From Ruegeria sp. THAF33 (GTDB taxonomy: Bacteria > Pseudomonadota > Alphaproteobacteria > Rhodobacterales > Rhodobacteraceae): a DNA stretch of 64,000 bases. Position numbers and translations under genes: made by a program. The notes below the pieces were generated by a model. It did not search any database. It was not told where the DNA came from and was given only the letters and a program-made list of their open reading frames with translations. The stretch is from assembly GCF_009363615.1 (NCBI RefSeq), contig NZ_CP045387.1, positions 14,250 through 78,249 on the forward strand. The letters run 5' to 3'. This document shows, piece after piece, positions 20,518-49,218 of this stretch. How positions within the stretch are numbered: position 1 is the stretch's first letter; each line of letters begins with the position of its first letter.

Positions 20518-20519
20518 GG

Positions 20520-21928: not shown

Positions 21929-21945
21929 GTCAATCGTCTTTCACA

Positions 21946-28119: not shown

Positions 28120-28134
28120 CTCTATTCTCCAACC

Positions 28135-28416: not shown

Positions 28417-28432
28417 GCGAAGTTCCCTTGTT

Positions 28433-30916: not shown

Positions 30917-32116
30917 TCAGACAGCTTCGAGCGCGATTGCAATCCCCTGTCCCACGCCAATACACATGGTCGATAACGACTTTTCTCCAGGTTTGAGGTC
31001 CAGCATCGCTGAACCAGTGATGCGGGCACCTGACATGCCAAGCGGATGGCCGAGAGCAATAGCGCCGCCGTTCGGGTTCACGCGGGCGTCATCATCCGCG
31101 ATCCCCAGGTGCCGTAGTGTGGCCAGACCCTGCGAAGCAAAGGCTTCGTTAAGTTCGATTACCGAGAAGTCTTCTTGTTTCAGTCCAAGTCGCGCCATCA
31201 GCTTTTCCGACGCCGGTGCCGGCCCGAAACCCATGATGCGCGGTGCGACGCCCGCGGTTGCGCCGCCCAAGACCCTTGCGATCGGTGTGAGGCCAAATTT
31301 TTTTGCGACGTCGCTGGTGGCAAGGATCAATGCTGCGGCACCATCGTTCACGCCCGAAGAATTCCCAGCGGTTACAGTGCCGTCCGCTTTTACGAAAGTT
31401 TTCAGTTGGGCGAGCGCTTCCAAAGTCGTACCCGCGCGAGGGTGTTCATCCTGTACGACGATCTTTGGCTCCCCCTTTCGCTGAGGAATCTCTACCGGGA
31501 CAATTTCACGGGCCAAACGACCGTTCGCCATGGCATCTCTCGCCTTTCGCTGCGAACGCATGGCGAAGGCATCTTGGTCGGCGCGGTTGATGCTGAAGTC
31601 TTCCGCTACGTTTTCGGCCGTTTCAGGCATGCTGTCGACGCCGTATTGACTCTTCATCTGTTTATTGACGAAGCGCCAGCCGATGGTGGTGTCTTCAGCA
31701 GAATTTTCGCGCGAGAATGCAGTTGTAGCTTTTGGCATCACAAACGGAGCACGAGACATGCTTTCCACACCGCCAGCAACAATGAGATCGGCTTCTCCAG
31801 CTTTGATCGCGCGGGCGGCTGTGATTACGGCGTCCATACCCGATCCGCACAACCGGTTCATCGTCGTGCCAGGGACACAATCCGGAAATCCCGCGAGTAG
31901 CAGCGACATGCGTGCGACGTTGCGGTTGTCCTCGCCCGCCTGGTTGGCGCAGCCGAAAATCACTTCGTCAATGGCCGCTAGATCTAGCTTCGGGTTTCGG
32001 CTGGCCAGGGCCCTGAGTGGGATTGCACCAAGATCGTCGGCTCGCACAGAAGAAAGCGCGCCGCCATAGCGACCAATTGGTGTGCGGATGTAATCGCAGA
32101 TGTAGACGTTTGTCAT
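30917..32116 (-). CDS. pcaF: 3-oxoadipyl-CoA thiolase
   Basis: A 399-residue thiolase: ICDYIRTPIGRYGGALSSV, GCANQAGEDNRNVARMSLLL, the active-site MNRLCGSGMDA (nucleophilic Cys about 89), DTTIGWRF, NEAFASQG, GGAIALGHPLGMSGAR and CIGVGQG. These stretches match PcaF/PaaJ, which split 3-oxoadipyl-CoA with CoA into succinyl-CoA and acetyl-CoA. One residue in the nucleophile loop is Gly where PcaF usually has Ala (CASGM). It is the last gene of the minus-strand arm, two bases after etfA, and provides the final step of adipate beta-oxidation. A general beta-ketothiolase is less likely given the sequence. Confidence 0.9.
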   Translation of the reverse strand: MTNVYICDYIRTPIGRYGGALSSVRADDLGAIPLRALASRNPKLDLAAIDEVIFGCANQAGEDNRNVARMSLLLAGFPDCVPGTTMNRLCGSGMDAVITAARAIKAGEADLIVAGGVESMSRAPFVMPKATTAFSRENSAEDTTIGWRFVNKQMKSQYGVDSMPETAENVAEDFSINRADQDAFAMRSQRKARDAMANGRLAREIVPVEIPQRKGEPKIVVQDEHPRAGTTLEALAQLKTFVKADGTVTAGNSSGVNDGAAALILATSDVAKKFGLTPIARVLGGATAGVAPRIMGFGPAPASEKLMARLGLKQEDFSVIELNEAFASQGLATLRHLGIADDDARVNPNGGAIALGHPLGMSGARITGSAMLDLKPGEKSLSTMCIGVGQGIAIALEAV

Positions 32117-32118
32117 TC

Positions 32119-33039
32119 TTAGAGTGCCTTTGTCATATCCGGGACGGCGTCGAGCAGGTCTGCGACCAGGCCGTAGTCGGCGACCTGGAAGATCTGGGCC
32201 TCTTCATCCTTGTTGATGGCGACGATGACCTTGCTGTCCTTCATGCCTGCAAGGTGTTGAATTGCCCCGGAAATCCCGACCGCGATGTACAGCTCGGGCG
32301 CCACGACCTTGCCGGTCTGGCCGACCTGCCAGTCGTTCGGTGCGAACCCGCTATCCACCGCCGCGCGCGAGGCGCCGACCGCCGCGCCCAGCTTGTCGGC
32401 CAGGCCCTCGATGATCGCGAAGTTCTCCTCGGAACCGACGCCGCGACCGCCCGAGACCACGATCTTGGCCGAGGTCAGTTCCGGACGATCCGACGCCGCG
32501 ACCTTGTCCTCGACCCAGGCGCTCAGGCCCGCGTTGCCGGCCGCTGCGATGGCCTCGACGGCGGCCGAACCACCCTGGCCAGCCGCGTCGAAGGCGGTGG
32601 TGCGGACGGTCAGTACCTTCTTGGAATCGTTGGACTTTACCGTCTGAATCGCGTTGCCCGCGTAGATCGGGCGTTCGAACGTGGACCCGTCCACGATGGC
32701 GGTGACGTCCGACAAAACCATCACGTCCAGCAGCGCCGCGACGCGCGGCAGGATGTTTTTCGCGCTCGCCGTGGACGGAGCAACGATATGTTCATAATTG
32801 CCTGCCAGGCTGACCACCAGATCGGCGACCGGCTCGGCCAGGCCGTTGGCATAGGCGGCGTCATCCGCCACCAGAACCTTTGCCACGCCGTCGATCTTCG
32901 ACGCGGCCTCGCCTGCGGCAGCGGGGCCCGCAACCAGAACGGTCACATCGCCCAGCGATTTGGCAGCGGTCACCGCCTTGGCGGTGGCGTCCAGCGCCAG
33001 TGCACCACCGGCGATTTCTGCAAGGAGAAGAACAGCCAT
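32119..33039 (-). CDS. etfA: Electron transfer flavoprotein alpha subunit
   Basis: A 306-residue ETF alpha subunit: [20 protein letters not shown] start, and C-terminal FAD-binding core with SGGRGVGSEENF, VGASRAAVDSGFAPNDWQVG, GQTGKVVAPELYIAVGISG and INKDEEAQIF. With EtfB it takes electrons from acyl-CoA dehydrogenases and passes them to ETF-ubiquinone oxidoreductase (not encoded here). It overlaps etfB by one base. It probably serves the acyl-CoA dehydrogenase at 44217. Confidence 0.95.
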   Translation of the reverse strand: MAVLLLAEIAGGALALDATAKAVTAAKSLGDVTVLVAGPAAAGEAASKIDGVAKVLVADDAAYANGLAEPVADLVVSLAGNYEHIVAPSTASAKNILPRVAALLDVMVLSDVTAIVDGSTFERPIYAGNAIQTVKSNDSKKVLTVRTTAFDAAGQGGSAAVEAIAAAGNAGLSAWVEDKVAASDRPELTSAKIVVSGGRGVGSEENFAIIEGLADKLGAAVGASRAAVDSGFAPNDWQVGQTGKVVAPELYIAVGISGAIQHLAGMKDSKVIVAINKDEEAQIFQVADYGLVADLLDAVPDMTKAL

Positions 33040-33797
33040 TACACGATCCCCTTTTCTTTCAGCTTCGACACCAGCTCGTCGACCGAGCCAACCATTTCCC
33101 CGGCCGAACGCGCGGCGGGCTCTGCCGTCTTGACGACGGTCAGGCGCGGCGTGACATCGACGCCGAAATCGGCGGCGGTCTTTTCGTCCAGCGGTTTCTT
33201 CTTGGCTTTCATGATGTTGGGCAGCGAGGCGTAGCGCGGCTCGTTCAGGCGCAGGTCGGCGGTGACGATCGCCGGCAGCTTCACCTTGATGGTCTGCAGA
33301 CCGCCGTCCACTTCGCGGGTCACGACGGCATGCTCGCCCTCGATCGCAACCTCAGAGGCATAGGTCGCCTGACCCCAGCCCAGCAGCGCCGCCAGCATCT
33401 GGCCGGTCGCGTTCATGTCGTTGTCGATCGCCTGTTTGCCCGCGATCACCAGGCCCGGCGCCTCGGCGTCGATCACGGCCTTTAGGATCTTGGCCACCGC
33501 CAGCGGCTCGATATCTTGGTGCACGTCGTCGGCGGCCACGACGAGGATCGCCCGGTCCGCGCCCATCGCCAGCGCCGTGCGCAGCGTTTCCTGCGCCTGT
33601 TTCACGCCGATCGACACGACGACAAGCTCGTCCGCCTTGCCCGCTTCCTTCAGACGGATCGCCTCTTCAACCGCAATCTCGTCGAACGGGTTCATCGACA
33701 TCTTCACATTCGCGAGACCAACTCCGCTACCGTCCGCCTTAACGCGAACCTTCACGTTGTAATCAATTAGGTGTTTTATAGGTGCAATTATTTTCAT
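33039..33797 (-). CDS. etfB: Electron transfer flavoprotein beta subunit
   Basis: A 252-residue ETF beta subunit: [69 protein letters not shown] and [21 protein letters not shown], all standard. It forms the heterodimer with EtfA. Most of the gene uses more G/C than the neighbouring SDR and monooxygenase genes, so the etf pair may have been added from a host-like source. Confidence 0.95.
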
Positions 33798-33873
33798 TGG
33801 CGTTTATCGTCTTGGAAATTTGCAATGGCAGTAACGGCCCGGGTTCCAGGCCGTTACTTGGGATGTGTCTCTG

Positions 33874-34629
33874 TCAATTCGCAGTATAACCGCCATCTAC
33901 TACAATCTCTGCTCCGTGAACGAACGATGACTCATCCGATGCGAGGAACAGGACCGCATTCGAAACCTCTTCAGGTTTGCTTGGCCGCTTGAGCAGCGTG
34001 GCCCCCAGAATTGCCTGCCGGGTCTCTTCGTCGGCGTGTAGCAGATCTTTTGTCATGGGAGTATCGATGACACCGGGATGGATCGAATTGACACGTATGC
34101 CACTTTCGGCCAGGTCGACTGCGCAGGATTTGGTCAACATCCGTACGGCGCCTTTGGATCCAATGTAGGCTCCCGCCGAAGCGGCACCAACAATCCCATA
34201 GATTGAAGAAATATTGATAATTGATGCTTTTTCGGTCTCTTTCATCAATGGAACCGCGGCTCGGATACCGAGATAAACACCGCGTACATTGACGTTGATC
34301 GTCATGTCAAATTCGTCAGGCGAGGTTTCGTGGAGCGGCTTCAGAATGAGAATGCCAGCGTTGTTCACTAGCACATCAAGTCGACCAGCACTTGATTGCA
34401 CCGTGGAGATGACATTCTTCCAATCTTCTTCAAGCGTCACGTCATGCTGAATGAATTCCGCCTTCCCTCCGGCTCCAATGATACCTTTTACTACGCTTTC
34501 ACCCGCTTCCGTATCACGGTCGGTTACAAATACATGCGCGCCTTCACGTGCCAGCGTTTCACAATGGGCTTTTCCCATGCCCATGGCGCCACCTGTTACC
34601 AGTGCGACTTTTCCGGATACCCGTCCCAT
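33874..34629 (-). CDS. Short-chain dehydrogenase/reductase, probable cyclohexanol dehydrogenase
   Basis: A 251-residue classical SDR: GGAMGMG nucleotide loop at 13-19, LVNNAGIL, NISSIYG with catalytic Ser, YIGSK with catalytic Tyr and Lys, and HPGVIDTPM. GGAGAG lies five bases before the ATG at 34629; the upstream ATG candidates lack this. It stands between the Baeyer-Villiger monooxygenase and etfB genes. In cyclohexanol pathways an SDR (ChnA) oxidises cyclohexanol to cyclohexanone, and this gene is the best candidate. Substrate is inferred from the neighbours; the C-terminal DGGYTAN end is ordinary for SDRs. Confidence 0.8.
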   Translation of the reverse strand: MGRVSGKVALVTGGAMGMGKAHCETLAREGAHVFVTDRDTEAGESVVKGIIGAGGKAEFIQHDVTLEEDWKNVISTVQSSAGRLDVLVNNAGILILKPLHETSPDEFDMTINVNVRGVYLGIRAAVPLMKETEKASIINISSIYGIVGAASAGAYIGSKGAVRMLTKSCAVDLAESGIRVNSIHPGVIDTPMTKDLLHADEETRQAILGATLLKRPSKPEEVSNAVLFLASDESSFVHGAEIVVDGGYTAN

Positions 34630-34701
34630 AGTTCTCTCCTGAGTGTTCATGAACAAATTTAATTGTTTCCGCCGGGTTTTCTTAATGCCCGACGGAATTC
34701 T

Positions 34702-36339
34702 TTACACCTTCTCGGCAGTGCGGTCGCGGATCAGGGATGTATAACCTTCCTCCTTAACCGCACTAATGGCATTGCGATAATTGCCAATCCCGGCCATGTA
34801 GAACATCACCGCATTCTTCTTTCCGGGGATATTTGCGCCGAAGATCCAGCTTTCAGCTTTGGGGAAGAGTGTCATGTCGGCGATTTCACGGCAGGTGCCA
34901 ACCCAAGCGTCGCGCGCCTCCACGGTTGGCTCCACACTTTGAACCCCCTCTTCTTCCATTGCGCAAATCGTGTCAGCGATCCATTCAACTTGCGTCTCAA
35001 TGCTGGGGGGCAGGTTAGTGAAGGGGCCATTAGGGCCAAGGATCATGAAGAAGTTAGGGAAGTCTACCTCCATCATGCCGAGGTAACCGAGTGGGCCTTC
35101 CTTCCAAGTGTCGCGCATGGTCACGCCTCCGCGTCCGCGGAGGTCCATTTTGACGTAATTGCCGTCGACCGCATCGAAACCAGTGGCAAAGATTACGATG
35201 TCAAGCTCATGCTCCTCGCCGCTTTCGAGACGAATGCCGTTCGGAGTGAACTCTGCGATCGGATCGGCCTTCACGTCGGCGAGGGTCACGTTGTCTCGGT
35301 TGTAGACCTCGTAATAGTTGTTTCCGCAAAGCGGGCGCTTGGCGTAAAGGTCCTTCGGCGTCAGTTTCTCTGCGACCTTGGGGTCCTTCACGATTTGCTT
35401 GATCTTGCCCTTGATGAAGTCAGCGGCCGCATCATTGGCCACTTGGCTGGTCGCAATATCGCAAAAGGTGCCAAACATGAAATAGAAACCACCGCCGCGC
35501 TGCCAGGCGGCTTCGAAGACCCGCTCCCGTTCCTCGGGCGAGGCGGTTTCGGCGGGTTCGGCGCTTTCTTCGAAGCCGAAGGCCACAACAGAATTCTTCA
35601 CTTGATTCCAGATATTATCGTAGTTCGCCTTTTGCTCGGCGATGGTAGCATCGTCTTGCGGGGTGTTCCCAATCGGCACGACATATTGTGCAGAGCGCTG
35701 AAAAACAGTCAGGTGTTTTGCAATTGGTGCCGTTGCAGTGATAACCTGAACACCCGTCGAGCCGGTGCCGATAATGCCCACGCGTTTGTTGCTCAAGTCC
35801 ACTCCCTCGGGCCAGGCACCTGTGTGTAAGATACGGCCTTTGAAATCATCGATGCCCTTGAATTTTGGAACATTCGTTGCGGACAAGAGACCGAGGCCAG
35901 TGACAAGGTATTTTGCGGTAACTGTCTCACCACTATCAGTGATCACGTTCCAGAGACCGGTTTTTTCATTATAGTGCGCGCCATCCACTTTGGTGTCGAA
36001 CTTGTAGCTGCGTCGAAGATCGAGATGATCCGCTACCTCGTTCATGTATTCGAGGATCTCGGGCTGGGTCAGATACCGGGTTTTCCAGCGGCCTTTTCGA
36101 AGCAACTCTTTGTCAAAAGAATAGCGATAGACATAGCTTTCCGTGTCTGACAGCGCACCGGGATATCGGTTCCACCACCAGGTGCCGCCAACGTCACTGG
36201 CGCTGTCATAGCCCCGGACGTTCAGTCCCTGCTCGTTGCGAAGTTTGTGGACAGCGTAAAGCCCGCCGAAGCCCGCGCCAATGACGACTGCGTCAAAATC
36301 CGCTCCGACCGTTTTAGTATTCTCAGTCTGAATGTTCAT
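34702..36339 (-). CDS. chnB: Cyclohexanone-type Baeyer-Villiger monooxygenase
   Basis: A 545-residue flavoenzyme. FAD motif GAGFGG (21-26), DVGGTWWWNRYPGA, Baeyer-Villiger fingerprint FKGRILHTGAWP (166-177), NADPH motif GTGSTG (191-196), then KHLTVFQRSAQYVVPIGN, RPLCGNNYYEVYNRDNV, ATGFDAVDGNYVKMD and LGPNGPFTNLPPSIE. These long stretches match known cyclohexanone monooxygenases, which insert oxygen to give epsilon-caprolactone using NADPH and O2. The ATG at 36339 follows GGGAGGAG. Related cyclic ketones (cyclopentanone, methyl-cyclohexanones) could also be substrates. It follows the lactone hydrolase gene in the operon. Confidence 0.92.
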   Translation of the reverse strand: MNIQTENTKTVGADFDAVVIGAGFGGLYAVHKLRNEQGLNVRGYDSASDVGGTWWWNRYPGALSDTESYVYRYSFDKELLRKGRWKTRYLTQPEILEYMNEVADHLDLRRSYKFDTKVDGAHYNEKTGLWNVITDSGETVTAKYLVTGLGLLSATNVPKFKGIDDFKGRILHTGAWPEGVDLSNKRVGIIGTGSTGVQVITATAPIAKHLTVFQRSAQYVVPIGNTPQDDATIAEQKANYDNIWNQVKNSVVAFGFEESAEPAETASPEERERVFEAAWQRGGGFYFMFGTFCDIATSQVANDAAADFIKGKIKQIVKDPKVAEKLTPKDLYAKRPLCGNNYYEVYNRDNVTLADVKADPIAEFTPNGIRLESGEEHELDIVIFATGFDAVDGNYVKMDLRGRGGVTMRDTWKEGPLGYLGMMEVDFPNFFMILGPNGPFTNLPPSIETQVEWIADTICAMEEEGVQSVEPTVEARDAWVGTCREIADMTLFPKAESWIFGANIPGKKNAVMFYMAGIGNYRNAISAVKEEGYTSLIRDRTAEKV

Positions 36340-36454
36340 ATCACTCCTCCCAGAGTAAGACCGCTCCGCCCCGCAGATTGCGGGTGAGATGCTAGATGAA
36401 TGTTTCGTAGGGGTTTGTCTCGCACCGCACCGCAATGCAGTGCGAGTACAGGTC

Positions 36455-37357
36455 TCAGAGGGCCCGATACCATGCGGCGATGCGACCAAGTTCCTCGTTT
36501 GCCTCGGGCGCGCGTCCCGAAAGCGCGGGAAAGACATGCTGCATGCCTTCGACGATAGACAGGGTCACGTTTACGCCCTGTGCCTTGGCCTTTTCGTGCA
36601 ACCGTTCGGCATCGCTCTTAAGCGTCTCGGCCCCTCCGGCATTGATATAGAGCGGCGGGTAACCGGTGAAATCGTTCTCCAGCGGGTTGGCCAACGGATT
36701 AAGCGGATCCGTGCCTTCACCGAGGAACATCCCCGCCATCGCTTCGAGGATCGGTTTGCCGACTAGCGCATCGGTTTCCGCGTTGGTTTCCAGTGTTTCC
36801 CCGCGCATCGCCATGTCGAGCCAGGGCGAATAGGCGATGACCGCTCCGGGCAGTGGCAACCCAAGTTCGCGTAACTTCAGCACGCTGGCGATGGCAAGAT
36901 TGCCGCCAGCACTGTCGCCAGCCGTCAGAATATTTCTTGCCTTGAAACCCTTATCCAGCAGCGCTTTGTATGCGGCTACTGCATCTTCGATCTGCGCCGG
37001 AAATGGGTGCTCGGGTGCGCGCCGATAGTGCAGGATCACCGACGTAACCCCAAGCACCTTAGCGAGGTGCCCTGCCATTTTTCGATGACTATCGGCTGAG
37101 CCGACGGCAAAGCCGCCACCATGAGTGTAAACAATTACACGCGAGGTATCTGCCCCGGCTGGTAGGGCCCAGATAGCCTCAACTCCTCCGACATGATCGC
37201 TTTTGTAGCTAACGTTTTCCGGCTCTAGTGCGGGCTGCCCCCATTCATCGAACATGCTGCGCAGGTTCGCGATCGTCAGGTCTGGGTTCTCGACCATCTG
37301 ATCGGTCCAATTCTGATAAAGCGCCCGCAGCGTATCCGCTTCTCTACTGATTTCCAT
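36455..37357 (-). CDS. Alpha/beta hydrolase (HSL family), probable caprolactone hydrolase
   Basis: A 300-residue esterase of the hormone-sensitive lipase family: oxyanion HGGGF (79-83), HYRRAPEHPFPA, nucleophile elbow GDSAGG (147-152, Ser149), NAGGAETLKSDA near the acid residue, and GMQHVF with the catalytic His. The acid loop shows Glu where many members have Asp. In cyclohexanone pathways a hydrolase of this type (ChnC) opens epsilon-caprolactone to 6-hydroxyhexanoate, and this gene lies directly upstream of the monooxygenase. GGGAGG precedes the ATG at 37357. The IS110 remnant begins about 200 bases upstream, so the original promoter may have been disturbed. Confidence 0.82.
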   Translation of the reverse strand: MEISREADTLRALYQNWTDQMVENPDLTIANLRSMFDEWGQPALEPENVSYKSDHVGGVEAIWALPAGADTSRVIVYTHGGGFAVGSADSHRKMAGHLAKVLGVTSVILHYRRAPEHPFPAQIEDAVAAYKALLDKGFKARNILTAGDSAGGNLAIASVLKLRELGLPLPGAVIAYSPWLDMAMRGETLETNAETDALVGKPILEAMAGMFLGEGTDPLNPLANPLENDFTGYPPLYINAGGAETLKSDAERLHEKAKAQGVNVTLSIVEGMQHVFPALSGRAPEANEELGRIAAWYRAL

Positions 37358-37644
37358 GTTTATCCTCCCAAGCATAACATTTGGCAAAGCCACCAACTGA
37401 CGTCGCCAATCTCGAAGACGTCAAACGGTCAACGGCATACGCCAATTATCTCAGAGTAAGGGCGAAAAATGCGCCATGTATTGAACAATCCTGCTTTGGA
37501 AATAGTATGATCGTGCTCAGCCTGTCGTGAGGCAGATATGCCCGTTACTAGGCTCTGTTGATGGCGTGGATACCCCCTCCCGACGGCATCGCAATGTGCC
37601 ACTATGATGAGCGTTAAAAGCCATCACAGAAGGAAGGAGCATCT

Positions 37645-38672
37645 ATGTCCGAAATTAAAATTATCGGTGTCGACTTGGCAAAGCGCGTTATCCAGTTGCA
37701 TGGTGCGTACAATGATGGGTCAGTCGCGTTTCGCAAAAAGCTTTCACGAGGCCAGTTTCTCGCGTTCGTGGCACAGCAACCCAAATGCATGATCGCCATG
37801 GAGGCGTGGCCACGGCGTATGGCTGGGGCCGCGAATTTGAGAAGCTGGGGTGCGACGTGCGGTTGATACCGCCGGTCTATGTGAAGCCGTTCGTCAAACG
37901 CCAGAAGAATGATGCGACCGATGCAGAGGCCATCTTGGAGGCTGCATTGCGTCCAACCATGCGCTTTTTCGCAGTGAAGACGGAAGATCAGCAGGCCCGT
38001 GCCATGCTGTTTCGCACGCGGCAGATGTTTGTCGGCCAGCGCCCCCAGATGATCAACGCTTTACGCGGCCACCTCGCCGAACACGGATTGGTCGCGGCCC
38101 GCGGGCCTGCCCATCTCAAGCGACTCGCGGACGCAATCGCAGGTGATGACACCGCGCTGCATGCTGAGGTTCGTGACCTCGGCCGGATGTATCTGGGGCA
38201 GATTGAGGGGCTGAATACGCGTGTTGCAGAGCTTGACGCGAAGATGCGATGTGCCGCCAAGAAAGCCGACTTGGTGCGCCGAACACAAACCATGCCGGGC
38301 GTGGTTCCTGTCACGGCGCTTGCGATCGAGACATTTGCCCGTGACCTGGCCACCTTCCGGCGCGGGTGCGATTTTGCCGCCTGGCTTGGGCTTGTGCCGA
38401 AGCAGCACTCGACGGGCGGCAAAGCCCGGCTCGGGAAGACCTCGAAGATGCGACAGCGCGACTCCGGACACTCTTGGTCTCTGGCGCTATGGCTGTCCTC
38501 CAGGCTGTCGAGCGGTTTGACACACCGAATAATGGCTGGCTGAAACGCCTACTAACCCGCAAGCCGCGCATGGGTCGCCGCGATTGCGCTGGCCAACAAG
38601 ATGGCGCGTGGCCTCTGGGCCATCATAATGAAACAAGAGGATTACCGGAATCCGGTGGCGGCGATGGCATAG
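37645..38672 (+). pseudogene. IS110-family transposase pseudogene with at least three frameshifts
   Basis: Pieces of one transposase lie in order on the plus strand. The N-terminal RuvC-like DEDD start is IIGVDLAKRVIQLHG (from 37645). The frame changes near 37808 to YGWGREFEKLGCDV and KRQKNDATDAEAI, and continues to GVVPVTALAIETFARDLATF and FAAWLGLVPKQHSTGGK. It changes again near 38440-38470 (SGAMAVLQAVERFDTPNN) and near 38570 (VAAIALANKMARGLWAI), ending at TAG 38670-38672. The order and spacing match the ~340-residue IS110 transposase. The element is inactive. It sits between the lactone hydrolase and fused fad-type genes. Typical IS110 ends lack clear terminal inverted repeats, so its edges are not defined. 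Confidence 0.88.
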
Positions 38673-38996
38673 CGAAGACGGCATGCCACGACGTCCCGGT
38701 AAGTTGGGAGTGTGAGGAGGTCACTGAAAAGTAAGGGCAAAGGATCGATCAGATCCGGGTCAGAGAAAGCAGCATTTGTGCAGGAGCCACCGAGCTCGGT
38801 TTGTTGATATGCCTCTGGTCCGCGCATCGCCATACCGGCCCGCGGTTACATCAGCGCCGCACACAGAGGCCTGATACATGACCGCACCCGATCACACGCT
38901 CGCGCCGTTCAAAAAATCACTTGCACCAATGGGGGCATGCATGCACAAATCCCGTGTCGGACTCATCTTATGAATCCAGCGTGGTAGCTGAGGTGC
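38673..38996 (+). other. IS-derived non-coding sequence between two insertion-sequence remnants
   Basis: No gene is supported. The left part is probably the downstream flank of the IS110 element. The stretch from about 38933 to 38996, ending just before ATGAGCAGACC, resembles the 5' end of an IS5-family element (GCACAAATCC near its tip). Confidence 0.45.
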
Positions 38997-41784: not shown

Positions 41785-43235
41785 AGCACTGGCGCGCGAT
41801 TGCGCGAGATAAATTTGGTAATGAGATAGCCTTCGAAGGTTTCCGTCCCGCCTTCAGTCCCATAGCCGCTGTCTCTCACGCCTCCAAACGGAGTCTCGGG
41901 CAGAGCGAGGCCGAACTGGTTGATGCTTACCATACCTGCCTGCAAACCCGCAGCTGCTTTATCTGCACGCTCTAACGAATTGGTAAAGACATAGGACGCC
42001 AGCCCGAAGGGTAGCCCGTTGGCCCGCGACAGTCCGTCCTCTATGTCACGAAAAGACGAGACGACAGCAATCGGGCCGAAGGGTTCTTCGCGCATCAAGT
42101 CAATGTCGTCGTTGGGCGTATCGACGATTGTCGGGGCATAGAAGTTACCATGATTTCCAAGCCTTTTGCCTCCCGTCAACACCCGTGCGCCGTTTTCGCG
42201 GGCATCCTCGACGAGCTTTTCCATCGCATTCACGCGTCCGCGATGACACAATGGCCCCATCTGTGTGCCCTCGGTTAAACCATCGCCCACCTTTACGCTC
42301 TCAAATGCTGAAACTAGCTCGGACAGAAATCGGTCGTAGATGCCTTGTTGTACGTAAAACCGGGTTGGGGCGATGCACACCTGGCCTGCATTGCGCAGCT
42401 TGTTGCCCGCCAAGGCGCGCGCCGCGGCCGTGGCATCGGCGTCGTCGAACACCAATACGGGCGCGTGACCGCCGAGTTCCATCGTCGCCCGCTTCATGTG
42501 GCGGCCAGCCAATTCTGCCAGATGCTTGCCCACCTCGACCGAACCGGTGAAGGTGATCTTGCGCACCTCGGGGCGCGCAATAAGAGTTTCCGAAATGAAG
42601 GCCGCATTACCCCAGACAAGGTTCAGACAGCCTTCGGGCAAGCCTGCATCCAGCAGATAGCGCGCAATTGCCATGCAGCCCGCCGGAGCCTCTGCCGGGG
42701 CTTTCAAGATCATCGTGCAACCTGACGCAAGCGCCGCCGCGACCTTGCGTACCGCTTGGCTCAGCGGAAAATTCCAAGGCGTGATGGCAAGGCAGACGCC
42801 TATCGGTTCGCGCACGACAAGCTGCTGTACCCCCGGGCTGCGCGATGGAATGATGCGCCCATAAATGCGCCGACATTCCTCGGCGTGCCAGTCGACGTGG
42901 TCAGCTGAGGCGCGGACCTCAGCCAAGGCCTCAGCCAGCGGCTTGCCTTCATCGAGAGTGATCCAGCCAGCGATCAGTCTGTCATTTTGGCGCAGCAGGT
43001 CGGCAAACCGTCGCAAAATTGCACTTCGTTCCATGGGAGAGCTGTTTTTCCATCGGCGAAAAGCTGATTCGGCCGAGTGAACCGCATGGTCCAGATCTGC
43101 GGCGCTAGCCTGCGGAATCTGTCCGATAGTTTGCCCGTTTGCAGGGTTTATGACTGCACGATCCTCCGGCGTGGGAGAAGCGATCCAGTCCCGTCCGATG
43201 AGGTGCTGGATGGTCGGATAATTCATTTCTTTCAT
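41781..43235 (-). CDS. NAD(P)-dependent aldehyde dehydrogenase, probable 6-oxohexanoate dehydrogenase
   Basis: A 484-residue aldehyde dehydrogenase: PWNFPLSQAVRKVAAALASG, FTGSVEVGKHLAELAG, TMELGGHAPVLVFDDAD with the general-base Glu, NKLRNAGQVCIAPTRFYV with catalytic Cys, and EEPFGPIAVV. The family is that of succinate-semialdehyde dehydrogenases, which accept omega-carboxylated aldehydes. In this setting it fits oxidation of 6-oxohexanoate to adipate (ChnE role). The ATG at 43235 was chosen over upstream in-frame codons because the extra N-terminal residues have no family match. It leads the minus-strand arm and faces the IclR gene across a control region with a clear palindrome. Confidence 0.85.
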   Translation of the reverse strand: MKEMNYPTIQHLIGRDWIASPTPEDRAVINPANGQTIGQIPQASAADLDHAVHSAESAFRRWKNSSPMERSAILRRFADLLRQNDRLIAGWITLDEGKPLAEALAEVRASADHVDWHAEECRRIYGRIIPSRSPGVQQLVVREPIGVCLAITPWNFPLSQAVRKVAAALASGCTMILKAPAEAPAGCMAIARYLLDAGLPEGCLNLVWGNAAFISETLIARPEVRKITFTGSVEVGKHLAELAGRHMKRATMELGGHAPVLVFDDADATAAARALAGNKLRNAGQVCIAPTRFYVQQGIYDRFLSELVSAFESVKVGDGLTEGTQMGPLCHRGRVNAMEKLVEDARENGARVLTGGKRLGNHGNFYAPTIVDTPNDDIDLMREEPFGPIAVVSSFRDIEDGLSRANGLPFGLASYVFTNSLERADKAAAGLQAGMVSINQFGLALPETPFGGVRDSGYGTEGGTETFEGYLITKFISRNRAPVL

Positions 43236-43306
43236 GGCGTTATGCCCTCGCTCAGTTGTGTCATCCGCAGGATCCGGCACGAAGGGGACCAGATGGACGA
43301 CTTTAG

Positions 43307-43325
43307 TTTTCCGCATAGCGGAAAA
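43307..43325. promoter_or_regulatory. IclR-type operator in the divergent promoter
   Basis: TTTTCCGC (43307-43314) and GCGGAAAA (43318-43325) form a perfect inverted repeat around ATA. Size, spacing and A/T-flanked CCG/CGG cores suit IclR-family sites. It lies between the aldehyde dehydrogenase gene and the divergent IclR gene, and can control both arms. Confidence 0.65.
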
Positions 43326-43406
43326 GTTTACCACAGTATTGACGCGGACGTTATCGATCGTTTAGATGTGTTTCAAGACGCATAATTCTTCCCGAGGAGG
43401 GATGTC

Positions 43407-44201
43407 GTGAGACCAAGGAAAGACCGCACCAAGGACGCCGAGAGACAGGACCGCGATTTTGTCACGGCGTTGGCGCGCGGCTTGGAGCTGTTGCGGGCCT
43501 TTCGGCGGGAAGGGGAAGCTCTGGGGAATGGTGAGTTGGCCGAGCGCACTGGCCTGAGCAGATCGACGGTCTCCCGGCTGGCCTATACACTGAACAAGCT
43601 GGAATACCTCAGCTACGACCCGGATACAGCACGTTATCGACTGGCCCCTCCAGTGCTTTCGTTGGGTTTCTCCTGCCTTGCAGGGATTCCGCTGCGGCAA
43701 CTGGCGAAGCCCTTTATGCAGGAGCTGGCTGATTACACAGGCATGCCGGTGGCCATGGCCAGTCGTGACCGGCTATCGATGGTCTATCTGGAGCGGTGCA
43801 AGGGCACTAATGCCGTCACGCTGGCGATCGAGGTTGGTGCCCATATTAAACTGGCCACGACCGCGGTTGGTCGCGCCTGCATAGCGGCGCACGACCCGGA
43901 TGAGCGGGCCAGAATTCTGGCCCTTGTGGAGGAACATGAAGGCGACAACTGGCCGAATGTGCAGCCCGGAATCGAAGCAGCTATCGCAGACTACCAACAG
44001 CACGGTTACTGCACGTCCTTCACGGAGTGGAAACGTGATGTGAACGCTGTAGCGGTGCCCTTCGTGCCGAAGGACGGCTCACCCATTATTGCCTTCAACT
44101 GCGGTGGCCCTTCGCAAACCCTTACGCGCGACTGGATCGAAAGCGACGTCGCGCACCGCCTTGTCGATCTTGTCCGCCGCGTTGCGGCGGTCGCACCCTG
44201 A
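43407..44201 (+). CDS. IclR-family transcriptional regulator of the catabolic cluster
   Basis: A 264-residue IclR regulator: winged HTH at about 18-85 (ALARGLELLRAF, GNGELAERTGLSRSTVSRLA, YTLNKLEYLSYD) and the effector-binding IclR domain to the end (HIKLATTAVGRACIAAHD, WPNVQPGIEAAIADYQQHGY, VNAVAVPF). The gene starts with GTG at 43407, preceded by GAGGAGGG. IclR members such as PcaR and PobR control aromatic and dicarboxylate pathways, so an intermediate of the pathway here, perhaps adipate or adipyl-CoA, may be the effector. It heads the plus-strand arm 15 bases before the acyl-CoA dehydrogenase gene and is divergent from the minus arm. Confidence 0.9.
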   Translation: MRPRKDRTKDAERQDRDFVTALARGLELLRAFRREGEALGNGELAERTGLSRSTVSRLAYTLNKLEYLSYDPDTARYRLAPPVLSLGFSCLAGIPLRQLAKPFMQELADYTGMPVAMASRDRLSMVYLERCKGTNAVTLAIEVGAHIKLATTAVGRACIAAHDPDERARILALVEEHEGDNWPNVQPGIEAAIADYQQHGYCTSFTEWKRDVNAVAVPFVPKDGSPIIAFNCGGPSQTLTRDWIESDVAHRLVDLVRRVAAVAP

Positions 44202-44216
44202 ACAATAGAGAGCATC

Positions 44217-45377
44217 ATGGCCCTTGATAAAGATACCCTTTCCCAGTTTCTCGACGCGCTCGACCGCTTCGTGAAAGAGCGACTAATCCCTTACGAGGAT
44301 CGCGTCGCCGACGAGGATGTGATTCCGCCGATGCTGGTCGATGAAATCCGCATGATGGGCCTTTTCGGCATGTCGATCCCGGAAGATTTCGGCGGGCTCG
44401 GCTTGTCGATGATAGAGGAAGTGCAAGCCGCTTTCGTTCTTGGCCAGGCTTCGCCTGCGTTCCGGTCGCTAGTTGGCACCAACAACGGGATCGGCTCTCA
44501 GGGAATCATCATCGATGGAACCGACGAGCAGAAGGCGCAGTATCTACCAGCTCTCGCGTCCGGAGATATGATCGCATCCTTCGCCCTAACCGAGCCAGAT
44601 GCTGGGTCGGATGCTGGCAGTCTGCGCACTACGGCGCGGCGTGACGGTAACGATTTCCTTCTGAACGGCACGAAACGCTACATTACCAATGCACCGCGTG
44701 CCGATCTATTCACGGTTTTTGCCCGGACCAATCCAGAGGCGGAAGGTTCTGCCGGCGTAAGCGCCTTTCTCGTCGAGGCAGGGACGCCAGGCATAACGCT
44801 TGGCCAGCCTGACAGGAAGATGGGGCAGAAGGGCTCGCACACATGCGACGTCATCCTTGACAATGTCCGCGTGCCTGCCGCGAACATTATCGGCGGGCCG
44901 GACCGTCTGAACAAGGGCTTTAAGACAGCAATGAAAGTCCTTGACCGGGGCCGACTGCATATTTCTGCCGTCTGTGTGGGCGCCGCCGAACGGCTGATCC
45001 GTGACAGCCTATCCTATGCGATGGAACGCAAACAATTCGGTGAACCCATCGCTGAAAAGCAACTGATCCAAGCCATGCTGGCTGACAGTCGCGCCGAGGC
45101 CTTCGCAGCGCGTTGCATGATCGAAGAAACAGCACGCCGCAAGGACGCTGGTCAGAACGTGTCGACTGATGCTGCCTGCTGCAAGATGTTTGCCAGTGAG
45201 ATGGTAGGTCGAGTGGCCGATCGCGCAGTGCAAATCCACGGCGGTGCAGGATACATGGCCGAATATGCGGTCGAGCGCTTCTATCGCGATGTGCGTCTCT
45301 TCCGCATCTACGAGGGGACAACCCAGATTCAGCAAATACTGATCGCGCGGAATATGATCCGCACTGCAGCAGCTTAA
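44217..45377 (+). CDS. Acyl-CoA dehydrogenase, probable adipyl-CoA dehydrogenase
   Basis: A 386-residue FAD-dependent acyl-CoA dehydrogenase: SFALTEPDAGSDAGSL, KRYITNAP, KMGQKGSHTCDVILDNVRVP, GGPDRLNKGFKTAMKVLDRG, then YRDVRLFRIYEGTTQIQQ, with the catalytic base Glu in the RIYEGT stretch. It would oxidise adipyl-CoA to the 2,3-enoyl-CoA and pass electrons to the EtfAB pair encoded at 32119-33797. It lies between the IclR and alcohol dehydrogenase genes in the plus-strand arm. Glutaryl-CoA dehydrogenases share the fold, but no decarboxylating signature could be judged by eye. Confidence 0.88.
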   Translation: MALDKDTLSQFLDALDRFVKERLIPYEDRVADEDVIPPMLVDEIRMMGLFGMSIPEDFGGLGLSMIEEVQAAFVLGQASPAFRSLVGTNNGIGSQGIIIDGTDEQKAQYLPALASGDMIASFALTEPDAGSDAGSLRTTARRDGNDFLLNGTKRYITNAPRADLFTVFARTNPEAEGSAGVSAFLVEAGTPGITLGQPDRKMGQKGSHTCDVILDNVRVPAANIIGGPDRLNKGFKTAMKVLDRGRLHISAVCVGAAERLIRDSLSYAMERKQFGEPIAEKQLIQAMLADSRAEAFAARCMIEETARRKDAGQNVSTDAACCKMFASEMVGRVADRAVQIHGGAGYMAEYAVERFYRDVRLFRIYEGTTQIQQILIARNMIRTAAA

Positions 45378-45395
45378 CAGGAGCGAAGACAAACT

Positions 45396-46550
45396 ATGGA
45401 CTTCAATTTCCTTTCCACCCCGAGGATCGTCTGCGAGAGCGGTGGGCTTGGCCGGATCGGCAGCCTGATGCAAGATTTGTCTTGCACCCGTGCGCTGGTC
45501 GTGACGGACCCGGGCATATTGGCCTGTGGTTTTGCGGACGAGGCAGCCGCCTCACTTAGGGCTGCTGGCATCGAGGTTGAGATTTTTCATAAAGTCGAAG
45601 CGGACCCCCCGATCGCTGTCGTCGAGGCCGCGGTAGAGGTCGCGCGGGCCTTTGGTGCTGACGGAATCATCGGACTTGGCGGCGGCAGTTCACTGGACAC
45701 TGCCAAGGTCATCGCAGCGGCGGTAGCCAACGATCAACCGATTACGGACATGATCGGGATTAATCAGGTCACCGATAAACGCTTGCCACTGATCCAGGTG
45801 CCAACCACGGCAGGGACCGGATCAGAGGTAACATGGGTGTCCGTGCTGACTTCGGAAAGCCACGAAAAAAAAGCGGTATATGCACCGCAGCTTCTGCCTG
45901 ACGTTGCCTTGCTAGATGCAAAGCTAACATTGGGAATGCCTCGTCACATCACAGCGGCCACGGCGTTAGACGCAATGGTTCACGCCATTGAGGCAGTAAC
46001 CAGTCGCACCAGAAAGAATCCCATTTCCGATGGAATGGCGGACAAAGCGCTGGTGCTTCTCGGTCAGAACTTACCAATCGTCATGGAAACGCCTTCGGAC
46101 CTGTCAGCGCGAGAGGCCATGCTGTTGGGGGCGACACTGGCTGGGATGGCCTTCATTAATGCCAGCGTGGGGGCGATTCATGCCTTGTCATACCCACTTG
46201 GAACAGGTTTCAAGGTTCCTCACGGGCACGCAAACGCTCTGGTCGCAGGACCAGTGATGAGGTTCAACATGCCCGTTGCAGAAGCTGAATATGCTCGTCT
46301 ATCGCGGTTACTACTGCCCTCGCGGCCTTTCAACTCTGATGCGGCTGCGGCCCATGGCCTGATCGACGAGATGGAACGGATGCTAGTCGAAAGCGGACTT
46401 GAGTCTCGACTTTCTGGTGTCGGAGTGACCGAGGCAGCCATTCCCGGAATGGCTAATGAGGTCGTGACCGGTATCACGCGATTGCTGGAGACCAACCCGC
46501 GCGACATGACAGCCGAAGATGTGTCGCGCCTCTATCAGGAGGCGCTTTGA
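45396..46550 (+). CDS. Iron-containing alcohol dehydrogenase, probable 6-hydroxyhexanoate dehydrogenase
   Basis: A 384-residue group III (Fe-type) alcohol dehydrogenase: GLGGGSSLDTAKVIA for NAD, then the metal region DAMVHAIEAVTSR and HALSYPLGTGFKVPHGHANAL, containing the conserved His ligands. It would oxidise 6-hydroxyhexanoate to 6-oxohexanoate. In described Acinetobacter pathways this step uses a zinc alcohol dehydrogenase (ChnD), so an Fe-type enzyme would be a non-orthologous replacement. The stop overlaps the CoA-transferase start by one base (TGATG), so the two are coupled. Function is inferred from context; other primary alcohols remain possible. Confidence 0.85.
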   Translation: MDFNFLSTPRIVCESGGLGRIGSLMQDLSCTRALVVTDPGILACGFADEAAASLRAAGIEVEIFHKVEADPPIAVVEAAVEVARAFGADGIIGLGGGSSLDTAKVIAAAVANDQPITDMIGINQVTDKRLPLIQVPTTAGTGSEVTWVSVLTSESHEKKAVYAPQLLPDVALLDAKLTLGMPRHITAATALDAMVHAIEAVTSRTRKNPISDGMADKALVLLGQNLPIVMETPSDLSAREAMLLGATLAGMAFINASVGAIHALSYPLGTGFKVPHGHANALVAGPVMRFNMPVAEAEYARLSRLLLPSRPFNSDAAAAHGLIDEMERMLVESGLESRLSGVGVTEAAIPGMANEVVTGITRLLETNPRDMTAEDVSRLYQEAL

Positions 46551-47752
46551 TGGCTGGCTCATTGGACGGGATCAAGGTGGTCGACCTCAGCCGCGTGCTG
46601 GGCGGGCCTTACTGCACCCAAATGCTTGCGGATCATGGCGCTGAGGTCATCAAGGTGGAGCCGCCTCTGGGCGACGAGACCCGCAGTTGGGGCCCGCCTT
46701 TCAATGATGAACTCAGCGCTTATTTCTCTGGCGCCAACCGCAACAAGCGGTCCATCGCTATCGATCTGCAGCAACCGGAAGGGCGCGACCTGATTTTGCG
46801 GTTTCTTCAGGATGCGGATGTTTTAGTTCACAATTTTAAGTCTGGTACTCTTGAAAAATGGGGGCTTGGTTATGCTGATGTTCTCAGGGCACGTTTTCCT
46901 AGACTGGTACTCTGCCATGTGACTGGATTTGGTTCCGATGGCCCACTTGGCGGTTTTCCCGGCTATGACGCCGTGGTACAAGCTATGACGGGCCTCATGA
47001 GCATCAACGGCAATCCCTCCGAAGGCCCGACACGCATGGGTACGCCCATCGTGGACATCGGCACCGGTCTGATCGCCTGTAACGCTATTCTCGCCGCACT
47101 TTTGGAACGGGGCCGGTCCGGATTGGGCCAAGCCATCGAAGTGCCGCTATATGATTGCGCGATCAGCATGATGCATCCCCAAGCGGCTAATTCCCTCATG
47201 TCCGGACAGATACCAATGGCGACCGGCAATGGGCATCCAAATATCGTACCATACGACATGTTCGAAACAAGTAATGGCAAACTCTATCTGGCTATCGGTA
47301 ACAATGGTCAGTTCGCAAAACTCTGTGACGTGCTTGGCCTACCTGAGGTGCCCTGCGATCCACGATTTGCCGACAATGCCGCGCGTCTTGCGCATCGGTC
47401 AGAGATGACAGAGGTCTTGTCAGAGTGCCTGGTGCAACATGACGCCTTCAAACTTGAGCCGGTGCTTTTGAAAGCTGGGATTCCCGCCGGAGTCGTTCGG
47501 AATGTGAATGAAGCGTTGGAGCATCCACACACCCGACATCGCGGCATGGTGGTATCAGTTGGCACCTACCGCGGCACCGGCGTGCCAGCACGCTTGTCGC
47601 GTACCCCCGGAGCGGTTCGCGCGGCACCGCCTCGCTTCGGGCAGCATAGTAGGGAGTTGCTTAGCGAGGCTGGACTGACAGAAGCTGAAATCGATAGATT
47701 GACTCAAGCGAATATCGTTCGAGAAGAACCGCGGATGCGCGAGACGACCTAA
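46550..47752 (+). CDS. CaiB/BaiF class III CoA-transferase, probable adipate CoA-transferase
   Basis: A 400-residue class III CoA-transferase: LDGIKVVDLSRVLGGPYCTQ, VIKVEPPLGDETRSWGPPF, NRNKRSIAIDLQ, GFPGYDAVVQAMTGLMS, and MGTPIVDIGTGL, with the catalytic Asp in VDIGTG. These enzymes move CoA between carboxylic acids, with a donor such as succinyl-CoA. Here it would activate adipate, using the succinyl-CoA formed at the end of the pathway. Known adipate routes often use class I transferases (DcaIJ) or ligases, so this is an alternative solution. The ATG at 46550 shares one base with the previous stop; an overlapping TTG at 46547 is less likely. Confidence 0.85.
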   Translation: MAGSLDGIKVVDLSRVLGGPYCTQMLADHGAEVIKVEPPLGDETRSWGPPFNDELSAYFSGANRNKRSIAIDLQQPEGRDLILRFLQDADVLVHNFKSGTLEKWGLGYADVLRARFPRLVLCHVTGFGSDGPLGGFPGYDAVVQAMTGLMSINGNPSEGPTRMGTPIVDIGTGLIACNAILAALLERGRSGLGQAIEVPLYDCAISMMHPQAANSLMSGQIPMATGNGHPNIVPYDMFETSNGKLYLAIGNNGQFAKLCDVLGLPEVPCDPRFADNAARLAHRSEMTEVLSECLVQHDAFKLEPVLLKAGIPAGVVRNVNEALEHPHTRHRGMVVSVGTYRGTGVPARLSRTPGAVRAAPPRFGQHSRELLSEAGLTEAEIDRLTQANIVREEPRMRETT

Positions 47753-47804
47753 GCCGAAATTTCAGCTCAAGCGGACGATCGTGAAAAAGTTCAGGGAGGC
47801 CAAG

Positions 47805-48686
47805 ATGGAAAGACTGCTCATATCACCGGACCGGATACCCGAATGGATTCCCGGCACGACTACGTTGGACAGTTCCGGGTGCAACTGGAACGGCATTACC
47901 CTGAAGGGCTATCGTTATGAGCGACAAGACGCGGCAATTCCCCCCATGCGCGACTATATGATTGTTGCATATGATGGCGCGCCAACCACTATGCGCCGCA
48001 CGAGTGGCGGCCCATGGCAAAGCGCGCGCGTAGAGAAAGGTAGGATTTCCTTGCTCACGCGTGCAGAGGAATCCACTTGGAGTTGGTCCGAGCCTATCAC
48101 GGTTAGACACGTCTATCTCAGTCACAGTGAACTCGAAAACACGGCCCTTTCGGTCTTTGATCGTGACCCGAAGTCCATTGAGATCAATGATTGTCTGTCT
48201 GCGAAGGACCCCTGTATCCTGAACTGCATCCAATTGCTAGAGAATGAGCTAAAGAACGGTGGAATCGGCCAGAGATTGATCATCGACGCCCTGCGCATCC
48301 AGATCGCCGTTCACCTTCTGCGTCAGTACGCCAAGGTCTCTTTGACCAGCGACGCAAACTCGAACTTCAGCCCTGCTCAAAGGCAGAGAATCATCGATCT
48401 CGTTGAAAGCTGCTTAGGTGAAAACCTCAGTCTGGAAGACATGGCCGCATCTATCGGTTTCAGCCAGTTTCACTTTTCGCGTCAGTTCAAGGCGGAGTTT
48501 GGGTTGGCACCGTATGCATATGTTTTGCGCAAGCGAATATCGAAGGCCCAGGAGATGCTGAGAAAGGGTAATGCCCCCCTGAAAGTGGTCGCGCTTGACT
48601 GCGGTTTTGCAGATCAGAGTCATTTTAGTCGAACTTTTCGAAAAATGACAGGCGCGACCCCCGCCGAATTCCGGCGCATGGCATAA
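47805..48686 (+). CDS. AraC-family transcriptional regulator
   Basis: A regulator of about 293 residues. The C-terminal 100 residues hold two HTH units: SLEDMAASIGFSQFHFSRQF and APLKVVALDCGFADQSHFSR followed by KMTGATPAEFRR, the AraC signature. The N-terminal part has no obvious cupin motif and probably senses the inducer. GGGAGG lies about six bases before the ATG at 47805, so the upstream GTG at 47781 is less likely. AraC-type ChnR activates cyclohexanol genes in Acinetobacter, and this protein may have a similar role, giving the cluster two regulators. It follows the CoA-transferase gene by 52 bases. Confidence 0.87.
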   Translation: MERLLISPDRIPEWIPGTTTLDSSGCNWNGITLKGYRYERQDAAIPPMRDYMIVAYDGAPTTMRRTSGGPWQSARVEKGRISLLTRAEESTWSWSEPITVRHVYLSHSELENTALSVFDRDPKSIEINDCLSAKDPCILNCIQLLENELKNGGIGQRLIIDALRIQIAVHLLRQYAKVSLTSDANSNFSPAQRQRIIDLVESCLGENLSLEDMAASIGFSQFHFSRQFKAEFGLAPYAYVLRKRISKAQEMLRKGNAPLKVVALDCGFADQSHFSRTFRKMTGATPAEFRRMA

Positions 48687-48759
48687 TGACCGGAAAACTA
48701 TTCCTTCCTATCGCTGTCACGCACCAGAGACAAAGAAATGTTGAGCCCGTAACGCTGCA

Positions 48760-49218
48760 ATGAATGTACCAGAAACAGAATTTAAACCACGATTTGCCTT
48801 CGAACGCAGGATTTTCTTTGGCGACTGTGACCAGCTGGGAATCGCCTTTACTGGCCGGATTACGAATTTCGCGCTGGAAGCGATCGAGACTTTCTGGGAC
48901 GATTTGCTTTCAGGCCGGGGCTGGCTTTTTCTACTCACGGAAAGAAACACGGCCATGCCTTTTGTCTCTATGGACCTACAATTCCATGCGCCGGTGAAAG
49001 CAGGCGCGAACCTAGCATGCGAGGTCTATGTGGTCCATGTCGGGGAAAGTTCAGTTGGTCTAAAAGTTGTCGGCCGTCAGCATGACTTGATTTGCTTCGA
49101 ATGCGAAACGAAGTCAGTTTTCCGAGATGCTTCAACATTTGGTAAAGTCAAAATTGAAAGCTCAATTCGGCAGATTTTGCTCGCGGAAGTGGGTTCGGAA
49201 AATCAAACAGTGAGCTAG
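48760..49218 (+). CDS. Hotdog-fold acyl-CoA thioesterase
   Basis: A 152-residue single hotdog domain of the 4-hydroxybenzoyl-CoA thioesterase/YbgC type: RRIFFGDCDQLGIAFTGR places an Asp in the usual active-site loop, followed by the long helix ITNFALEAIETFWDDLL, then MDLQFHAPVKAGANLACEVY. It probably hydrolyses an acyl-CoA, either as a safety valve for trapped pathway intermediates or to recycle CoA. It is the last cargo gene on the plus strand, 73 bases after the AraC gene. Specificity cannot be read from sequence. Confidence 0.8.
   Translation: MNVPETEFKPRFAFERRIFFGDCDQLGIAFTGRITNFALEAIETFWDDLLSGRGWLFLLTERNTAMPFVSMDLQFHAPVKAGANLACEVYVVHVGESSVGLKVVGRQHDLICFECETKSVFRDASTFGKVKIESSIRQILLAEVGSENQTVS

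Follow-up and report, generated by a model that had tools for sequence, protein, structure and literature searches.

Does the gene cluster at positions 30917-49218 of a 64,000-nucleotide stretch of Ruegeria sp. THAF33 (the window) provide an entire route from cyclohexanol to central metabolism, and does that route move between bacteria as a unit? The window spans bases 14250-78249 of contig C4 (NZ_CP045387.1; 78249 bases), one of five contigs of a 4.63 Mb genome; coordinates below refer to the window unless stated otherwise. Thirteen intact core genes at 30917-48686 and an adjoining thioesterase gene supply a candidate for each step in the conversion of cyclohexanol into acetyl-CoA and succinyl-CoA, and we read the locus, with a probability of roughly 80%, as a complete and mobile cluster for cyclohexanol/cyclohexanone mineralisation on a RepABC-type plasmid of marine Roseobacteraceae. 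The enzymes named in a preliminary description of this DNA are all present between 30917 and 49218, and none of the 14 translated genes has an internal stop; the IclR and AraC regulators are cluster members that it did not name. From left to right, the region holds the following features (HSL, hormone-sensitive lipase; SDR, short-chain dehydrogenase/reductase; BVMO, Baeyer-Villiger monooxygenase).

30917..32116, minus strand: 3-oxoadipyl-CoA thiolase (PcaF type), last step (NF006551, TIGR02430)
32119..33039, minus strand: EtfA, electron transfer flavoprotein alpha (PF00766, PF01012)
33039..33797, minus strand: EtfB, electron transfer flavoprotein beta (PF01012)
33874..34629, minus strand: SDR, proposed cyclohexanol dehydrogenase (PF13561/PF00106, NF005559)
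34702..36339, minus strand: cyclohexanone monooxygenase (CHMO, a type I BVMO), 545 residues (identity to Q8VLS4, motifs)
36455..37357, minus strand: HSL-type alpha/beta hydrolase, proposed caprolactone hydrolase (PF07859; HGGG and GDSAG motifs)
about 37562..39732, no strand given: remnants of IS110-type and DDE-transposase insertion sequences (IS) (NF033542, PF13737)
39733..41772, minus strand: fused enoyl-CoA hydratase/3-hydroxyacyl-CoA dehydrogenase, FadB-like (PF00378, PF02737, PF00725)
41781..43235, minus strand: aldehyde dehydrogenase, proposed 6-oxohexanoate dehydrogenase (PF00171, E 1.7e-158)
43407..44201, plus strand: IclR-type regulator, PcaR/PcaU/PobR-like (PF09339/PF01614; TIGR02431 at 135.6 bits, below its cut-off of 284.75)
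44217..45377, plus strand: acyl-CoA dehydrogenase, proposed to act on adipyl-CoA (PF00441/PF02770/PF02771)
45396..46550, plus strand: iron-type alcohol dehydrogenase, proposed 6-hydroxyhexanoate dehydrogenase (PF00465)
46550..47752, plus strand: class III CoA-transferase, proposed succinyl-CoA:adipate CoA-transferase (PF02515, E 1.6e-128)
47805..48686, plus strand: AraC-type regulator, proposed upper-pathway activator (PF12833)
48760..49218, plus strand: 4HBT-like acyl-CoA thioesterase (PF03061, E 4.8e-5)

The thioesterase has no match in the corresponding Roseibium locus (L088) and is probably peripheral to the cluster.

The preliminary description had called the thiolase and monooxygenase identities strong, and both withstand comparison with named proteins: judged from sequence, the two ends of the pathway are firm, and the steps between them are assigned by family and context. 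The thiolase exceeds the cut-offs of both 3-oxoadipyl-CoA thiolase models (NF006551, 705.9 bits against 605; TIGR02430, 669.7 bits against 597) and has the motifs Cys90, GHP356 and CIGVG385. The monooxygenase is identical at 426 of 545 residues (78%) to the Xanthobacter CHMO Q8VLS4, an entry from Xanthobacter flavus under the name cyclohexanone 1,2-monooxygenase, which we take to be the enzyme of Xanthobacter sp. ZL5. Type I BVMOs are marked by two Rossmann glycine motifs and FxGxxxHxxxW(P/D), represented here by GAGFGG21, GTGSTG191 and FKGRILHTGAWP166, and the protein carries the fingerprint FKGRILHTGAWP. Its closest solved relative is the CHMO of T. municipale (E 9.5e-223, with a longer frame as query), and the best PDB scores of each group were 744.5 bits for CHMO, 494.2 for steroid, 469.8 for phenylacetone and 414.2 for OTEMO monooxygenases. 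A review passage (PMC3915288) credits cells that express the Xanthobacter sp. ZL5 CHMO with accepting a very wide range of ketones. The extent first given for the gene had to be corrected: it starts at 36339 and encodes 545 residues, as annotated in a near-identical plasmid, and the frame of 611 residues, reaching 36537, would overlap the hydrolase gene. Assigning that longer frame to the larger BVMO class of cyclododecanone/cyclopentadecanone type was rejected, since the annotated start gives 545 residues and the nearest named relatives are CHMOs.

The remaining enzymes are placed more loosely. The SDR passes only NF005559, the model of a broad subfamily labelled glucose 1-dehydrogenase (252.8 bits against a cut-off of 215), a match that neither supports nor excludes cyclohexanol as substrate, and for the enzymes besides the thiolase and the SDR no NCBIfam model reached its cut-off among the matches listed. 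The CoA-transferase has a GYDxxxQ motif, its solved relatives include succinate-hydroxymethylglutarate CoA-transferase, and its best-scoring models, all below cut-off, concern the dicarboxylates glutarate and mesaconate.

We propose that the SDR would oxidise cyclohexanol to cyclohexanone, into which CHMO would insert oxygen to give epsilon-caprolactone; the HSL-type hydrolase would open this ring to 6-hydroxyhexanoate, and the iron-type alcohol dehydrogenase and the aldehyde dehydrogenase would carry the product to adipate. The class III transferase would then form adipyl-CoA, with succinyl-CoA as the likely donor. Desaturation of adipyl-CoA is assigned to the acyl-CoA dehydrogenase, whose electrons the cluster's own EtfAB would feed to the chromosomal ETF:quinone oxidoreductase of the host, the gene for which is located on contig C1. 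The fused hydratase/dehydrogenase would yield 3-oxoadipyl-CoA, which the thiolase would cleave to succinyl-CoA and acetyl-CoA. The AraC-type protein is probably an activator of the upper half; homologues of it (59% and 50% identity) adjoin CHMO genes in two other loci (L020, L027), where none of the lower-half enzymes was seen. The likely signal for the IclR-type protein is a dicarboxylate or the corresponding CoA ester. The chemistry is already known and combines the Acinetobacter chn pathway with subsequent beta-oxidation of adipate; what is new here is the arrangement and mobility.

Is this gene set kept together elsewhere? Relatives were collected by similarity to the monooxygenase (the best 80 of 164 loci, with flanks of at most 10 kb, many contigs ending sooner), and a gene was counted as present at 55% identity and 80% coverage. 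The monooxygenase, hydrolase and SDR occur together in 23 of the 80 loci; FadB, the acyl-CoA dehydrogenase and both dehydrogenases in 21, all clear relatives of the present cluster; and the upper set, the lower set and the thiolase in 18. The lower half was not seen at this threshold and flank length in the other 59 loci, so that the earlier statement that known clusters usually stop at adipate has partial support; the 21 relatives and a Pseudomonas plasmid described below run counter to it. Weaker matches exist in L041 (Pseudonocardia; thiolase 47% and acyl-CoA dehydrogenase 48%, close to its monooxygenase) and in L036 (aldehyde dehydrogenase 57%, CoA-transferase 40%).

The search for the same gene set that had been suggested recovered it in divergent relatives. 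On Roseibium plasmid NZ_CP045625 (L088) all 13 genes recur, their order and orientation unchanged, with protein identities of 66-89%; this plasmid differs in that there are no IS remnants between FadB and hydrolase, the thioesterase was not found, and PLSDB types it as non-mobilizable. Matches akin to L088 lie on four Labrenzia plasmids and in Roseibium sp. Sym1. In Rhodobacteraceae loci L023-L026 the 13 genes likewise keep this order, AraC being truncated by the end of the locus, and Shimia L019 has the full set but with the thiolase relocated between SDR and EtfB. Of the comparisons with L088, L025 and L019, 35 yielded a ratio of nonsynonymous to synonymous substitution rates (dN/dS), which ranges from 0.03 to 0.25, many of them with saturated dS (>1); four had no dS, and no value was calculated for AraC against L025 or for the thioesterase. 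Across these three relatives FadB shows the lowest conservation (66-67%), and it also differs most from the copy in L085 (38 nonsynonymous and 40 synonymous changes, dN/dS 0.32); for AraC the value against L085 is 0.61 on only six changes. Because the Roseibium plasmid retains the gene order at 66-89% identity and dN/dS is low, comparison of the sequences indicates that the 13-gene unit is old and under purifying selection. Fresh assembly of the cluster on this plasmid was discarded as an explanation, as the gene set is kept elsewhere at 66-90% identity. With the CHMO and PcaF assignments, this conservation and low dN/dS lend good support to the claim that every step is encoded, in the form of a candidate gene for each.

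The same unit is found nearly unchanged across genera. A 100% identical monooxygenase occurs in nine of the 80 genome loci (three Ruegeria, Pseudooceanicola, Paracoccus, Pseudosulfitobacter, Thalassococcus, Pelagimonas and Primorskyibacter) and in six plasmid records (four Sulfitobacter, Pseudosulfitobacter and Mameliella), making at least nine genera, and in eleven plasmid records a single region covers 80% or more of the 18.3 kb cluster. Within an even sample of the order, six of 390 genomes, the host's own included, have the CoA-transferase at 99-100%; the seventh match is at 56%. When the window was compared in 1 kb steps with 17 loci, 12 of these were 99.5-100% identical over 31-40 kb, and the other five (L012-L014, L016, L017) were 92-100% identical or not aligned. 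Against L085, L102 and L104, identity is 95.6-99.7% over 40-49 kb and 99.8-100% over 49-54 kb; L085 and L102 keep 100% identity as far as about 56 kb, beyond which it drops to about 90%. Steps in the transfer genes are 85.8-93.6% identical wherever aligned, except in Pelagimonas phthalicica (L011), which shares 21,833 identical bases, transfer genes included, with a host whose rpoB is 84% identical to its own. The host rpoB is 82-85% identical to that of six other carriers and 94% to that of two Ruegeria, the latter value suggesting a host close to Ruegeria.

At the left edge of the cluster, identity jumps from about 88% to near 100% about 32-55 bases past the thiolase stop; no clear recombination site was seen there by eye in the alignment. 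Two Ruegeria loci (L005, L021) have unrelated DNA beyond this edge, with an integrase-core transposase gene next in L005, and in S. alexandrii the cluster lies on a 349 kb plasmid adjoining a Mu-type transposase, TniB and TniQ set. Sequence identity on this scale suggests that an entire pathway is being exchanged among diverse marine bacteria. A bolder version, which we offer tentatively, is a recent ocean-wide sweep still under way, in which conjugation and allelic replacement would have carried one catabolic allele into nine or more marine genera, outpacing divergence of the plasmid backbone, with selection coming from some widespread marine compound not yet recognised, be it an alicyclic ketone, a lactone or a breakdown product of polyesters.

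Over 31-37 kb the window is 99.5-100% identical to a first group of loci (L005-L008, L010, L011, L018, L021, L085, L102-L104) and 92.3-97.1% to a second (L014, L016, L017). Over 40-48 kb it is 97.7-100% identical to the second group, and the first group splits into L007, L008, L010, L018, L085 and L102-L104 at 95.6-99.7% and L005, L006, L011 and L021 at 97.7-100%. The copy in the window looks like a recombinant mosaic of two haplotypes, because the switch falls near 39.7 kb, at the IS remnants. These sit between the FadB-like and hydrolase genes, a gap that is 192 bases in the Roseibium cluster; by eye, L014 of the second group has transposase-like remnants at the same place. Inactivation of the pathway by this insertion was rejected, as it is intergenic and touches only the FadB tail, and Shimia FadB ends at nearly the same point. 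In the Mameliella alba copy (L103, 44.1-45.2 kb) the iron-type alcohol dehydrogenase may be broken: the best match covers 65%, with no coding sequence in an incomplete gene table.

The element that carries the cluster has genes for replication and transfer. A ParA-like gene opens contig C4 and RepC (PF03428, PF11800) lies at contig positions 2602-3882, with a gene between them that has no Pfam match. A terminal overlap was sought at the contig ends and none was found, so that circularity is not proven; its relatives are circular plasmid records. The transfer genes, typed by Pfam matches among which VirB7 was not identified on contig C4, are the following.

7881..11745, plus strand: relaxase and VirD4-type coupling protein (PF03432, PF02534)
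17997..29347, minus strand: VirB-type transfer apparatus with VirB11, B10, B9, B8, B6, B5, B4, B3 and B2 and two transglycosylases (PF00437, PF03743, PF03524, PF04335, PF04610, PF07996, PF03135, PF04956, PF05101, PF01464)

Conjugation is the proposed route for the spread described above.

Several known systems allow the arrangement to be set in context. The chn cluster of Acinetobacter SE19/NCIMB 9871 leads from cyclohexanol to adipate with CHMO, a lactone hydrolase, dehydrogenases for cyclohexanol, hydroxyhexanoate and oxohexanoate, and an AraC-type regulator; its 6-hydroxyhexanoate dehydrogenase is zinc-type, the cluster ends at adipate, and to our knowledge it has no CoA-transferase, Etf or thiolase. 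Candidates for all these enzymes and the AraC regulator recur here, with the substrates of all but CHMO predicted. The present cluster differs in that its candidate hydroxyhexanoate dehydrogenase is iron-type (PF00465) and that the CoA-transferase, acyl-CoA dehydrogenase, FadB, Etf and thiolase, acting beyond adipate, are linked to it. The dca-type adipate cluster of Acinetobacter uses a two-subunit class I CoA-transferase, unlike the single class III transferase (PF02515) found here.

Both halves and the electron carrier do lie together beside transfer genes, as the preliminary description had stressed, but this has a precedent in Pseudomonas kurunegalensis plasmid NZ_CP156902 (516,859 bases, conjugative in PLSDB), which has both halves and EtfAB within about 31 kb (positions 340829-372266 of that record). 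Its genes encode a hydrolase (65% identity), CHMO (67%), SDR (62%), alcohol dehydrogenase, aldehyde dehydrogenase (56%), AraC (33%), EtfA (61%), EtfB (65%), 3-oxoadipyl-CoA thiolase (52%), acyl-CoA dehydrogenase (66%), IclR (43%) and CoA-transferase (41%). It differs in having separate rather than fused hydratase and dehydrogenase, two monooxygenase genes, no match to the iron-type alcohol dehydrogenase, and halves that are separated by IS and intron genes. An independent assembly of this kind speaks for the pathway reading, and it means that finding both halves on one transferable element is not unique. Actibacterium plasmid pNS6002 (NZ_CP010871; conjugative in PLSDB), from an oil-contaminated tidal flat, has matches adjoining VirB genes (hydrolase 83%, CHMO 82%, SDR 80%, acyl-CoA dehydrogenase 84%, IclR 73%); unlike here, the two stretches read contain no FadB-like, Etf or PcaF-like match, and different acyl-CoA genes lie close by. 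Plasmid 2 of Polaromonas sp. JS666 (NC_007950, typed conjugative) groups hydrolase, CHMO (64%) and SDR in one cluster; a 58.6% identical CoA-transferase, amid acyl-CoA genes with a DcaP-type porin, lies some 45 kb from it. This plasmid differs by lacking PcaF-like, Etf and FadB-like matches in either stretch. An excerpt of one paper cites the JS666 CHMO as converting substituted cyclohexanones (PMC5407406). We found no report of the present cluster or of its Roseibium counterpart in open-licence papers, most subscription journals being outside this scope, and the string "cyclohex" is absent from the main text of each of four papers on Roseobacter plasmids (PMC9025767, PMC5513947, PMC9044938, PMC13386836).

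Several observations weigh against a complete and mobile cyclohexanol pathway. The assignment rests on sequence, roles in catalysis, growth and expression being predicted, and among substrate-specific models it is supported for the thiolase only. No match to a cyclohexane-hydroxylating P450 lies on contig C4 (P450 matches are on C1 and C2), on which ground cyclohexane hydroxylation as a plasmid-borne first step was dropped, other hydroxylase families not having been searched. The FadB-like tail, at the IS edge, is shorter than that of Roseibium, and since the IS remnants split the minus-strand set, the half from hydrolase to thiolase would need its own promoter. S. indolifex and S. pontiacus OXR-199 are without the monooxygenase, hydrolase, SDR and Etf genes, beside IS21 genes, and the latter is also without the thiolase, so plasmids of this kind persist without these genes. 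PLSDB labels four close relatives mobilizable rather than conjugative, VirB genes being annotated in them nonetheless.

The enzymes might run as drawn on another natural input, be it adipate, a substituted cyclohexanone, or caprolactone or 6-hydroxyhexanoate released from polyesters. CHMOs can be promiscuous, as noted in part of a review (PMC3915288), some carriers come from plastic surfaces (THAF37; the Roseibium-type THAF35, 187b, 191a and 191b) and from algal cultures (Skeletonema, Alexandrium, Macrocystis, Emiliania), and two plasmids retain lower-half genes without the monooxygenase. Set against this, dN/dS is 0.03-0.11 for CHMO in three lineages and 0.06 for SDR in the one with a dS value, so ketone oxidation itself seems to be under selection, and we regard such an input as somewhat unlikely, with perhaps one chance in a few. 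A pathway from cyclopentanone to glutarate, or one for large-ring ketones, is improbable: the CoA-transferase scores best against the succinate-glutarate transferase model, at 361 bits below the cut-off of 750, and the substrates of type I BVMOs overlap, but in the PDB search the CHMO entries outscore the remaining named BVMO groups, and a thiolase of PcaF type indicates a C6 dicarboxylate. As for the near-identity across genera, three carriers (R12_2, R13_0, R14_0) resemble one project by name, yet the same DNA stands in complete plasmid records of separate origin (North Sea, copepod, kelp, coral, vent and Japan), which makes contamination or a single sampling project a very remote explanation.

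What distinguishes the cyclohexanol/cyclohexanone cluster is a compact 13-gene unit, kept in divergent relatives and near-identical across genera. A linked set that covers the whole way from a ring ketone to acetyl-CoA and succinyl-CoA, and that brings along regulators and an electron carrier, would be a trait acquired in one transfer. Its near-identity across genera offers a clean case for asking what selects alicyclic ketone use at sea and how fast catabolic alleles replace one another on plasmids, and the unit is an intact natural module for work on adipate and caprolactone.

Outside the cluster, the host has a second BVMO, 40% identical to CHMO, at G000:C3:205510-206148 (L002), with a partial AraC-type gene at the locus edge (36% identical over half the length). 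Contig C4 also holds several probable defence genes. A Hachiman pair, HamB helicase and HamA, lies at 14173-17714 adjoining the transfer genes (best PADLOC scores 1367.5 and 484.5 bits), and the plasmids of Mameliella and S. pontiacus OXR-199 have similarly annotated genes at that place. A SIR2-HerA pair is found at 2332-5112 (418.9 and 788.6 bits), and the adjoining helicase at 117-2288 scores 899.7 bits as SngC in PADLOC. An AbiEi/AbiEii abortive infection pair lies at 7550-9296 of L100, a locus that also holds RepC. Next to VirD4, at 11764-13185, is a gene for a protein with a Tle1-like (DUF2235) hydrolase domain, and a DUF2235 gene is likewise placed in the DSM 107133 and Mameliella plasmids. 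Finally, a 0.6 kb repeat is present in two copies, 95% identical, at 5343-5926 and 63204-63787, and matches the DUF736 gene region of other plasmids.

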